Source: Lachnospiraceae bacterium (GTDB taxonomy: Bacteria > Bacillota > Clostridia > Lachnospirales > Lachnospiraceae). Taken from it: a stretch of DNA of 39,349 nucleotides. Location: contig JAFZOW010000118.1 of NCBI GenBank assembly GCA_017552715.1, positions 1 to 39,349 on the forward strand. The letters are read 5' to 3'. The position numbers were made by a program, and so were the translations under genes. This document shows, one piece after another, positions 13,483 to 39,349 of the stretch (position 1 is the stretch's first letter; each line of letters begins with the position of its first letter). The notes below the pieces were generated by a model, which was not told where the DNA came from, did no database searches, and saw only the letters and a program-made list of their open reading frames with translations.

Positions 13483-13736
13483 CAGGGACGGCCCGTTGTC
13501 AGGATCCGTTTAAATACCTGAAAAAAAGACGGGCATATGTATTCAATGCGGCGACCGTATTTTGCCGTCGGCGCTTAGCGAGCAGGCCGGATGCCGTTCT
13601 ATCTAACATCCGGCCGTTTTGCGAGCTTAGCGTCCGCTACTGGCAAAATCCGAGCGGAAGCGTGTCGCAGCATGAATACATATCCCGTCCTTCCTTTATG
13701 AAAAGTTAACGGATTCTGACAAAAGGGCCTTCCCTG
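13483..13736. repeat. 254-nt giant imperfect palindrome filling the intergenic region
   Basis: Left arm CAGGGA (13483-13488), GGCCC (13490-13494), TTGTCAG (13496-13502) and ATCCGTT (13504-13510) pair in order with AACGGAT (13708-13714), CTGACAA (13716-13722), GGGCC (13725-13729) and TCCCTG (13731-13736), interrupted only by 1-2 base bulges. Inside it, starting at GACGGG (13528-13533), a second long stem begins, which is the repeated element described separately. The whole gap between the 551-aa lipoprotein and the TPR lipoprotein therefore folds as one long hairpin. It lacks a terminal T-run, so it is not an ordinary terminator, though it could hinder read-through. There is no coding sequence in it. 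Confidence 0.75.
13528..13689. repeat. Structured palindromic intergenic element, copy A
   Basis: The ends GACGGG-c-ATATGTATTCA-a-TGC and GCATGAATACAT-ATCCCGTC are complementary. Two inner blocks are identical in copy B at 39162-39310: a 23-base block at 13564-13586 (contains GGCGCTTAGCGAGCA) and a 22-base block at 13619-13640 (contains TGCGAGCTTAGCGTC). The two blocks pair with each other: GGCGCT/AGCGTC, AGC/GCT, a tandem GA/GA mismatch, then GCA/TGC. The central hairpin GGCCGGATG/CATCCGGCC and the side stem ATTTTGCC/GGCAAAAT differ in bases from copy B but remain paired. This could be a miniature inverted-repeat element or a structured RNA. There is no transposase or ORF inside. Confidence 0.75.
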
Positions 13737-28772: not shown

Positions 28773-28801
28773 TTGACAAATAATCCCTGATGTTATATTA
28801 T
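28773..28801 (+). promoter_or_regulatory. Promoter of the GntR-clpC operon, inside the terminator palindrome
   Basis: A consensus -35 TTGACA (28773-28778), 17 bases, and TATTAT (28796-28801) whose last bases are the loop of the 28782-28820 palindrome. The start near 28808 lies in the right arm, so this transcript lacks the left arm and cannot form the terminator. The palindrome covers the spacer and -10, which is also an ideal place for an autorepressor operator. Confidence 0.75.
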
Positions 28802-28826
28802 AGATATAACATCAGGGATTTTTTTT
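28782..28826 (+). terminator. Terminator of the SH3 gene / probable GntR operator
   Basis: A perfect 17-bp inverted repeat: left arm 28782-28798, loop TATAG, right arm 28804-28820, then eight Ts. As RNA from upstream it is a strong rho-independent terminator. As DNA the dyad (core CCCTGATGTTATAT) spans the promoter of the downstream regulator gene and could bind that GntR protein. Confidence 0.85.
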
Positions 28827-34079: not shown

Positions 34080-35240
34080 GTGACTAAGATCGATGTGATC
34101 AGCGGCTTTCTGGGTGCAGGAAAGACGACGCTGATCCAGAAGCTTTTAAAGGAAGCCTGGACAGGCGAACAGGTAGTGCTCATTGAAAATGAGTTTGGTG
34201 AGATCGGTATCGACGGCGGCTTTTTGAAAGAGGCCGGCATTGAGATCACCGAGATGAACAGCGGCTGCATCTGCTGCTCCCTTGTGGGAGATTTCGGCAC
34301 CGCTCTTAAAGATGTGATGAAGCAGTTTACTCCGGACCGTATCGTGATCGAGCCCTCCGGCGTCGGGAAACTTTCCGATGTGGTGCGGGCCATTCAGAGT
34401 GCGGAGCTGGGGGACGATGTGGTACTCAATTCCGCCATCGTGGTGGTGGATGCCACAAAATGCAAGCTTTATCTTAAGAATTTCGGCGAGTTCTACGTGA
34501 ACCAGCTGGAGCATGCGGGCACCATCATCTTAAGCCGTACAGGAAAGATCAGCGATGAGAAGCTGCAGGCGGCCATTGCCCTGATCCGTGAGCATAATGC
34601 GAAAGCCACCATCATCACTACCCCCTGGGAGGAGATAACGGGACAGTCCATCAAAGAGACCATGGAAGGTGTGGATCTGCTGGATGAGCTTCTGAAGGAA
34701 GTGATGGAGCATCATCACGACGAGGAAGAATGTGACGATCCCGAGTGTGAATGCCATCATCATCACCATCATCACGATGAGGATGAGGAGCATGAGTGCT
34801 GTCACCACCATCACCATGACGAGGATGAGGAACACGAGTGCTGCCACCATCATCATGATGAGGATGAAGAGCATGAATGCGGCCATCACCATGATCATGA
34901 CCATGAGGATCACGATCATCATGAGCATCATCACGAACACGGGCATCATCACCATCACCATGCGGACGAGGTCTTCGGAAGCTGGGGAATGGAGACGGCC
35001 TCAAAATATACGAAGGACGAGATCGAAGAGTGCCTGAAGGCTCTCAGTGATGCCGTAACTTACGGGGTGGTGCTTCGCGCCAAGGGCATGGTCCCTGCGG
35101 TGGAAGGCGGCTGGATCTACTTCGATTATGTGCCCGGCGAAAGTAATGTGAGAGAGGGGACGGCGCAGCCCACCGGCAAATTCTGCGTCATCGGTTCGAA
35201 GCTTAACGAAGAGGAACTGGAGGAGCTGTTTAAGAAATGA
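34080..35240 (+). CDS. CobW-family GTPase (COG0523) with histidine-rich metal-binding insert
   Basis: A GTG start at 34080 with AAAGGAGG nine bases upstream. The G3E GTPase domain has Walker A GFLGAGKTT (9-17), the metal-transfer motif GCICC (62-66) and 'IEPSGVGKL' (90-98). 'SRTGK' (152-156) stands where NKxD is usual. Residues 211-294 form an insert with about 40 His plus Asp/Glu/Cys, including three copies of a 'DEDEEHECC/G' unit followed by His runs. The CobW C-terminal domain follows ('VTYGVVLRAKGMVPAVEGGW'). COG0523 proteins deliver Zn, Co or Fe to client enzymes or act in metal scarcity; the metal here is not known. It overlaps the next gene by four bases. Confidence 0.9.
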   Translation: MTKIDVISGFLGAGKTTLIQKLLKEAWTGEQVVLIENEFGEIGIDGGFLKEAGIEITEMNSGCICCSLVGDFGTALKDVMKQFTPDRIVIEPSGVGKLSDVVRAIQSAELGDDVVLNSAIVVVDATKCKLYLKNFGEFYVNQLEHAGTIILSRTGKISDEKLQAAIALIREHNAKATIITTPWEEITGQSIKETMEGVDLLDELLKEVMEHHHDEEECDDPECECHHHHHHHDEDEEHECCHHHHHDEDEEHECCHHHHDEDEEHECGHHHDHDHEDHDHHEHHHEHGHHHHHHADEVFGSWGMETASKYTKDEIEECLKALSDAVTYGVVLRAKGMVPAVEGGWIYFDYVPGESNVREGTAQPTGKFCVIGSKLNEEELEELFKK

Positions 35241-38676: not shown

Positions 38677-39108
38677 TCAGAAGCGCTCCGAGTTCTTTTC
38701 GTCGCAGTAGCGGCAGCGGTACAGTTCCCGCACCGGATCCGCCAGATAAAAGATGTGGGGCAGCTCCTGCTCGATGGAAGTGATGCAGCGAGGGTTCTTG
38801 CATTTCATGATCCCTGTGAGCTCCTTCGGCAGCTCCAGCACCCGTTTCTCCACGATCTCGCCGTCCTTGATCACGTTCACTGTGATGGTATGGTCGATGA
38901 CCGCCAGCACATCCAGGTCCAGGGTGTTGATATCACATTCCACCTTGATGATGTCCTTTTTGCCCATGATGTTGGAACGGGCATTCTTGATGATGGCCAC
39001 GGTGCAGTCCAGCTTGTCCAGTCCCAGATGGTAATAGATGGACATGCTCTTTCCTGCGGGAATGTGGTCCAGTACAAAACCTTCTTCGATCTTGCCTACG
39101 TTTAACAT
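38677..39108 (-). CDS. pyrI: Aspartate carbamoyltransferase regulatory chain
   Basis: PyrI binds CTP/ATP and holds the PyrB trimers in ATCase. The N-terminal allosteric domain ('MLNVGKIEEGFVLDHIPAGK') is followed by a C-terminal zinc domain with C103, C108, C132 and C135 ('CKNPRC', 'CRYC'). The length of 143 aa is slightly short but complete. The ATG at 39108 has a GGAGG site (39120-39116). pyrB is normally directly upstream, but the 240 bases to the window edge hold an intergenic palindromic element and no recognisable PyrB C-terminus. The gene converges on the 830-aa membrane protein. Confidence 0.95.
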   Translation of the reverse strand: MLNVGKIEEGFVLDHIPAGKSMSIYYHLGLDKLDCTVAIIKNARSNIMGKKDIIKVECDINTLDLDVLAVIDHTITVNVIKDGEIVEKRVLELPKELTGIMKCKNPRCITSIEQELPHIFYLADPVRELYRCRYCDEKNSERF

Positions 39109-39164
39109 TATGTTTCCTCCGTTTTGATCAGATAATCGAATACGTGGATGCGGCCGGGCATCAT
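39108..39164 (-). other. 18-codon ORF overlapping the pyrI start
   Basis: MMPGRIHVFDYLIKTEET ends in TAA overlapping the pyrI ATG (TAATG). Its ATG is supplied by the terminal bases of the palindromic element. It has no clear ribosome site of its own. It could be a translational-coupling leader or chance; I do not recognise the peptide. Confidence 0.25.
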
Positions 39165-39310
39165 GTATTCAATGCGAGGACCGTATCGAGCCGTCGGCGC
39201 TTAGCGAGCAGGTCTGTCGCCGTATCATCCGGCGGGCAGACCGTATTGCGAGCTTAGCGTCCGCTACGAGCGAGATCCGTGCGAGAGCTGAGTCCTCGCA
39301 TGAATACATG
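39162..39310. repeat. Structured palindromic intergenic element, copy B
   Basis: The ends CATGTATTCA-a-TGCGAGGAC (39162-39181) and GTCCTCGCATGAATACATG (39292-39310) pair over 19 bp with one bulge. The 23-base block at 39190-39212 and the 22-base block at 39246-39267 are identical to copy A (13564-13586, 13619-13640). The central stem is GGTCTG/CAGACC where A has GGCCGG/CCGGCC. The side stem ATCGAGC/GCGAGAT keeps pairing with a tandem G-A mismatch where A has ATTTTGCC/GGCAAAAT. It lies 53 bases upstream of pyrI. The rest of the stretch to the window end (39311-39349) shows nothing I can identify. Confidence 0.75.
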
Positions 39311-39349
39311 TGCACGGACGCCACAGTATGAGTTATACCAGTTCCAAAA

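Follow-up and report, generated by a model that had tools for sequence, protein, structure and literature searches.

The window analysed here is the whole of a 39,349-nt contig (JAFZOW010000118.1, contig C16 of the 3.43-Mb assembly GCA_017552715.1) from a Lachnospiraceae bacterium, and it carries two copies of a palindromic hairpin element. A first-pass annotation, made from the letters of the window, had placed these copies 25 kb apart, at 13528-13689 and 39162-39310; both are real, but they are two of about 29 in this genome, and R1, a covariance model built from 18 copies, extends them to 13527-13694 (copy 1) and 39153-39322 (copy 2). The R1 bounds are wider because they take in a basal stem beyond the terminal ATGTATTC; around copy 1 there is also an outer palindrome. 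The strand of R1 is the one chosen in the first-pass annotation, and matches in the element's own genome were accepted at E up to 0.01. Direct reading bore out the shared parts described earlier: the left ATGTATTCAATGCG, a 23-base block GCCGTCGGCGCTTAGCGAGCAGG, and a 22-base block TTGCGAGCTTAGCGTCCGCTAC are common to both copies; GGCCGG/CCGGCC forms the central stem of copy 1 and GGTCTG/CAGACC that of copy 2; and the two blocks pair with each other through a helix that includes a tandem GA/GA and also a U.U mismatch. A repeat search of the window aligns the copies at 85% (61 nt) and 83% (48 nt), and the folding energy of each lies below that of all 200 dinucleotide shuffles. Copy 2 is ~45 bp upstream of pyrI (38677-39108, reverse strand; PyrI domains were found) and antisense to it. 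The parts of the two copies, all on the forward strand, are as follows.

13527..13694, +, copy 1, basal stem included (R1 175.8 bits; fold z -7.8)
13528..13549, +, copy 1 left basal arm GACGGGC-AT-ATGTATTCAATGC, partner 13670-13689 (fold and sequence)
13670..13689, +, copy 1 right basal arm GCATGAATACATATCCCGTC (fold and sequence)
13564..13586, +, first conserved core block of copy 1 (23 nt), forming the left strand of the U.U/tandem-GA helix
13619..13640, +, second conserved core block of copy 1 (22 nt), forming the right strand of the U.U/tandem-GA helix
13585..13615, +, copy 1 variable distal stem GGCCGG...CCGGCC (sequence and fold)
13654..13661, +, copy 1 side hairpin GC-GGAA-GC with a GNRA-type loop
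about 13485..13508, +, copy 1 outer palindrome, left arm GGGACGGCCCGTTGTCAGGATCCG (sequence reading)
about 13710..13734, +, copy 1 outer palindrome, right arm CGGATTCTGACAAAAGGGCCTTCCC (sequence reading)
39153..39322, +, copy 2 (R1 165.5 bits; fold z -5.4)
39190..39212, +, copy 2 conserved core block 1 (sequence)
39246..39267, +, copy 2 conserved core block 2 (sequence)
39211..39242, +, copy 2 variable distal stem GGTCTG...CAGACC (sequence and fold)
39281..39288, +, copy 2 side hairpin GC-GAGA-GC with a GNRA-type loop

Across the family the element is about 130-280 bp long and has a common architecture. Outermost is a basal stem of ~15-25 bp whose sequence differs in most copies; inward of it come the ATGTATTCAATGCG region; an irregular helix; a side hairpin, GC-NNNN-GC, on the 3′ side; the core helix with its U.U mismatch and tandem GA; and a variable tip. 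The irregular helix can contain a second tandem GA (ATCGAGC/GCGAGAT), in place of which other copies, as read individually, have the Watson-Crick form ATTTTGC/GCAAAAT. Among 133 distinct copies, the side-hairpin loop fits GNRA in 122/127 four-base loops. Outer arms resembling those of copy 1 were seen by eye at three more own-genome copies (L002-L004). At least eight own-genome copies also contain a 95-nt G-rich hairpin module inside the element, at one or both of two places; a search of this genome matches the module 15 times, twice in part, and it was not found in 149 other genomes of the family (0/149). At one own-genome locus (L213:1501-1594, contig C31) the module is followed by only a short element remnant, with no R1 match, and this could be either a decayed element copy or a second mobile hairpin; the module there has two Rfam matches, both far below threshold.

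Copies were sought in the host and in related genomes, as the first-pass annotation had suggested. R1 has 29 matches in the own genome, and blastn with copy 1 gives 28, some of which are pieces of one copy. Among 98 genomes searched, R1 matches 28, comprising 20/35 of the genus and 8/25 others in the family (28/60 of the family), and 0/38 genomes from other families of the order. The 98-genome search scored at most 29 candidates per genome, and counts near 29 are lower bounds; copies per genome range from 0 to 28, with at least 28 in G000 and at least 26 in G049. Scanning named genomes by pattern found eight loci, in three Lachnospiraceae, two Selenomonadales, Onthocola, Ruthenibacterium, and Methanoculleus, of which R1 recognises only L033, from an uncultured Lachnospiraceae bacterium. 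Loci L029, L031, L034, L035, and L036, from other taxa, hold smaller hairpins with the same CTTAGCGAGC/GCGAGCTTAGCG helix as the element, and those of L034 and L035 adjoin the apparent end of pgk. The element has no match in the plasmids and phages searched, and we reject carriage by either on that ground; the core pattern is present on one viral contig. The earlier remark that this is no described family holds for Rfam, where the window has 0 matches at gathering thresholds and the element stretch has one at E up to 10, far below threshold, and for the literature searched (mostly open-access papers, with part of the matches listed), in which no description of the family was found; it extends no further.

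The fold is conserved through extensive paired change. In A3, an alignment of 78 copies, 91.8% of cells are paired compared with 67.4% (sd 0.5) after shuffling (0/500 shuffles as high), both sides have changed at 39/43 pairs, and there are 823 double-changed cells compared with 238 (sd 18) in shuffles; structures slid along the alignment pair at 32-47%. In the MAFFT alignment A1, double changes occur at 24/43 pairs. The conserved part of the element is its middle, and the ends are the least conserved. For the 132 copy pairs whose cores have no more than one difference, mean identity at the eight outermost basal pairs is 40-68%, and over all copies these same pairs are 82-96% Watson-Crick; the basal stem therefore drifts as a two-arm unit while the core is held in sequence. 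Among the 47 nearest copy pairs, basal double changes divide 57:57 between transitions and transversions, a balance like that of unpaired sites (259:305).

Paired change of this kind is standard evidence for a functional RNA, and the first-pass annotation had taken the compensatory changes and tandem G-A pairs as typical of one. Conservation of structure agrees with that view; the way in which the pairs change does not. In an RNA, A-C is much less well tolerated than G-U, whereas DNA copying and duplex maintenance treat the two more alike. We ran one pipeline (MAFFT, RNAalifold, FastTree, and parsimony) on sets of the element and on two control RNAs of the same clade, the signal recognition particle (SRP) RNA (28 rows) and the thiamine pyrophosphate (TPP) riboswitch (30 rows). 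Identical copies were dropped (141 to 133), as were copies of 200 nt or more in the G049, G024, G041, and other per-genome sets, and gap cells throughout. Single-step events to G-U and to A-C number 6:8 in A1 (18 rows), 33:16 in G049 (31 rows), 4:4 in G024 (16 rows), and 16:9 in G041 (15 rows), a four-set total of 59:37 (A-C 37/96), against 61:0 in SRP RNA and 13:0 in the TPP riboswitch (A-C 0/74). Counted as cells, the G-U:A-C balance is 12:11 in A1, 44:0 in TPP, and 150:6 in SRP; the G000 set and a set of the remaining copies give 3:4 and 42:63, which are weak, with no more than 15 and 25 consensus pairs to draw on. For each G-U event the element has 7.7 (A1), 2.7 (G049), 8.5 (G024), and 5.2 (G041) double changes, TPP has 2.0, and SRP has 1.2 (0.8 within the genus). 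Alignments fitted to the model agree (G-U:A-C events 36:27 and 48:31), and the tree of 133 distinct copies yields 624 doubles with 71 single steps from Watson-Crick to G-U and 51 to A-C. The G-U excess of the element is modest and well below that of the control RNAs, and changes in its stems, compared across copies, do not show the filtering seen in SRP and TPP RNAs.

The balance is also indifferent to the direction of neighbouring genes, with G-U:A-C cells of 56:33 in co-directional, 46:28 in antisense, and 30:15 in mixed settings. Because the ratios are alike in all orientations, the reading of opposite strands at different places is no explanation, and we rejected an RNA of whichever strand is transcribed since antisense copies show no flip.

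The copies lie between genes, and their positions turn over. By flanking segment we located 21 own-genome sites in a sister species (G030), 15 aligned on both sides and six on one; copies not located there include L043, L044, L046, L060, L064, and L065. The first-pass annotation had advised looking for empty sites in sister strains, and the element is absent at 21/21 located sites; R1 finds nothing up to E 1 in 24 G030 loci (73.5 kb; 23 fetched loci and the pgk-tpiA locus L155). The 14 G030 junctions examined, 12 as gaps and two as alignments, hold short or unrelated sequence. In the own genome two elements lie in a 416-bp pgk-tpiA spacer; in G030, where TpiA is 97% identical, this spacer measures 13 bp. 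At the L050/L200 junction the extra DNA ends at the foot of the basal stem, give or take a few bases, and that stem is therefore part of what differs. Among 164 distinct copies (flanks up to 1.3 kb, making this a lower bound), both flanking genes matched in two cross-species pairs, L069/L072 and L051/L300, of which the latter may be independent insertions; in L089/L092 one flank matched. Copies L070 (G001) and L074 (G019) have the core, basal stem, and outer palindrome GTATAATACAGGGGCC in common. Their flanking genes give no support to orthology, and, the outer palindrome being common to both, we left them out as a resident pair.

Orientation relative to genes is mixed. Using a codon-scored gene caller, which is rough (an earlier naive caller of open reading frames likewise gave mixed orientations), we found the upstream gene of own-genome copies to be co-directional in 20/28 called cases, with 0/26 copies in divergent spacers; in other genomes copies in divergent spacers occur, and those of G024 are mostly antisense. 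A fixed cis element or riboswitch was rejected in view of this mixed orientation, the 24 G030 loci with none, and the two both-flank pairs among 164 copies. Neighbouring copies have a strict arrangement: in the fetched loci, 21/21 copy pairs within 1.1 kb are divergent and none is tandem or convergent. Their middles (32-1048 nt) are AT-rich in all but one and mostly unrelated, on which basis we rejected inverted pairs as a composite with common cargo. One divergent pair (L342:4906-5507, in G049) lies in a ribosomal-protein operon between apparent infA and rpsM/rpsK genes, named from their translations.

Starting from the family, fold, and covariation, and from presence here with absence in the sister species, we interpret the element, with roughly even confidence, as a dispersed mobile non-coding palindrome of the REP/BIME/ERIC/BOX kind, probably recognised as a folded single DNA strand, with arms kept complementary in DNA. 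The first-pass annotation had offered as its alternative a miniature inverted-repeat transposable element (MITE) drifting by arm conversion, and that idea fits better than selected RNA, although three resident pairs, considered below, speak for RNA. The element would be moved in trans by a putative enzyme that recognises the core on the folded single strand, and arm complementarity would be kept at the DNA level by template switching between the arms in replication, by selection on the DNA hairpin, or by both. Copies between or behind genes may often be transcribed and may act as mRNA hairpins, which we would regard as a secondary effect and not the cause of maintenance. Arm copying would erase the U.U mismatch, the tandem GA, and the side hairpin; as all are kept, the core appears to be selected in folded single-stranded form, and because the GNRA-type loop and tandem GA are strand-specific, one strand seems to be read in that form. 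For the stems, the wobble test speaks for DNA; for the core, it does not decide between a DNA and an RNA strand. We speculate, while considering it unlikely as a whole, that the mobile element inherits a single-stranded DNA fold, with a mismatch-bearing core read by a putative recombinase and basal arms of free sequence copied from each other in DNA, and so mimics RNA covariation without the full wobble signature.

A number of points weigh against this interpretation. Comparison of open reading frames all against all revealed no recurring transposase, recombinase, or reverse transcriptase beside the copies among the clusters listed. There is no Y1 transposase in the own genome, and one is present in 5/10 element carriers and in 3/6 genomes without the element. 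No target-site duplication could be read in the comparison with G030, one sister species that is too diverged for exact junctions, and whether absence there reflects loss in G030 or gain in the own genome cannot be told. The control RNAs number only two; copies may recombine and so blur the tree, which makes the parsimony counts approximate; and alignments A2, A3, and A6 were fitted to R1. G-U cells exceed A-C cells overall (148:85) and inside three genomes (68:22 in G049, 24:5 in G024, and 42:9 in G041), doubles per G-U event in G049 come near the TPP value, and transversions make up 0.37-0.49 of the doubles, not far from the 0.35 found in TPP.

Mobilisation by a RAYT/Y1 transposase was rejected on the own-genome absence, the spread over carriers and non-carriers, and 10 Y1 loci that, searched with flanks of at most about 1.5 kb per side, held no element. 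Of the three Y1 genes in G049, two (contigs C136 and C10; L338 and L340) are ~3 kb from an element, a proximity that tempers the rejection.

Further points of this kind belong to the rival in which the element is a functional structured RNA, either acting in cis within mRNAs or forming a small RNA present in many copies, with stems kept by RNA selection. The covariation at 39/43 pairs is what it predicts, GNRA-type loops are a classical RNA feature and occur with a conserved tandem GA on one strand, and inner double changes in the 47 nearest copy pairs are biased to transitions (43:9), as RNA selection would give. The three apparent resident pairs (L069/L072, L051/L300, and L089/L092) show 11 doubles, seven G-U, one A-C, four other single mismatches, and four unclassed changes; the changes are few, and they lean to RNA-type tolerance. 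The co-directional upstream genes and the lack of divergent spacers in the own genome, within the roughness of the gene caller, point the same way. However, the across-copy G-U:A-C balance is far from that of same-clade SRP and TPP RNAs and does not change with gene orientation, orientation itself is mixed and in G024 mostly antisense, and the located sister-species sites lack the element; we regard a structured RNA as fairly unlikely.

An ordinary MITE derived from a DDE-type insertion sequence, with terminal inverted repeats, copies moved by that transposase and decaying after insertion, and covariation reflecting only the divergence of the source elements, would account for the terminal inverted repeats, the presence and absence between species, and the intergenic placement. 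Such MITEs have conserved ends rather than a conserved middle, the opposite of what is seen in the element, whose middle is conserved and whose ends are the least so, and no related transposase was found beside the copies when adjoining reading frames were compared (among the clusters listed), making this origin improbable. Insertion of the core alone into existing palindromes such as terminator or REP-like hairpins, which would supply the copy-specific basal stems, fits copy 1 and three relatives, which lie in a GACGGG/CCCGTC stem inside an outer palindrome, and the near-equal cores whose basal stems, in the most divergent copy pairs, retain 11-15% identity at the outer pairs, but is very improbable given that conservation fades outward over several pairs with no single boundary, that a basal stem is common to four own-genome copies, and that the G030 site of L050 has no palindrome by eye.

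Returning to a mobile palindrome, several known systems are comparable. ERIC/IRU elements of enterobacteria are large imperfect palindromes of ~130 bp, intergenic, with gain and loss between strains. Our element is like them in size, palindromic form, intergenic place, and turnover, in another host; this comparison, like that with BOX, is by description. BOX elements of Streptococcus pneumoniae are modular, dispersed intergenic repeats with strong predicted hairpins, sometimes co-transcribed with their neighbours (PMC3049150). Both families are dispersed intergenic hairpin repeats with one unit absent or repeated; the present element differs in that its optional 95-nt module lies inside the hairpin, at two places, and was found in the own genome only. 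REPs are 20-40 bp long and form GTAG and CGTC families, the CGTC families being without a dedicated transposase (PMC3733652, the main text of which contains neither 'clostridi' nor 'lachnospir'). The element resembles those CGTC families in that no dedicated transposase was found for it and differs from REP/BIME in its length of about 130-280 bp, its conserved middle, and its copy-specific ends. On reading, the ends carry no GTAG/CGTC tag and are copy-specific; no further tag search was made.

The attC sites of integrons have recombination boxes at the stem base and occur in cassette arrays. They are recognised as a folded single strand through structure, with little sequence conservation and variable terminal structure (PMC2727003). 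The variable tip and the proposed folded-strand recognition of our element are similar, whereas its middle is conserved, its ends drift, and its copies are dispersed between ordinary genes. Template switching, in which one arm is copied from the other in DNA, has been proposed to produce compensatory changes in one event (PMC8794818). That case was studied in RNA genes and is invoked, not proven, for the mobile repeat described here.

Covariation is the usual evidence for RNA function, and the element has hundreds of paired changes yet a G-U/A-C balance across copies that is not RNA-like. If our interpretation is correct, this balance would give RNA screens an inexpensive way to filter out mobile palindromes, and the family would lend itself well to tests of template switching between the arms of a hairpin. 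It would also point to a putative mobilising enzyme in bacteria that, from the record titles of relatives, are apparently of the gut and rumen.

A few minor observations complete the description. Many G049 copies have a box like TAGAATAGCCAA-n-AAACTAGC just 5′ of the hairpin together with a -10-like hexamer, which, judging from sequence, could drive transcription into the hairpin. Elsewhere in the own genome, a GA-cis RNA (RF02987; L020:1763-1847, forward strand, 63 bits) adjoins a long-form element copy; we set it aside as a stretch of its own, and its name had no match in the literature searched. Within the window, CATCAT/GATGAG codons are repeated at 34758-34969, which would encode a His/Asp/Glu-rich, metal-binding-like segment if read in the open reading frame at 34080-35240, and a terminator-like 21-bp inverted repeat with a 5-nt loop and a T run at its end lies at 28778-28824.
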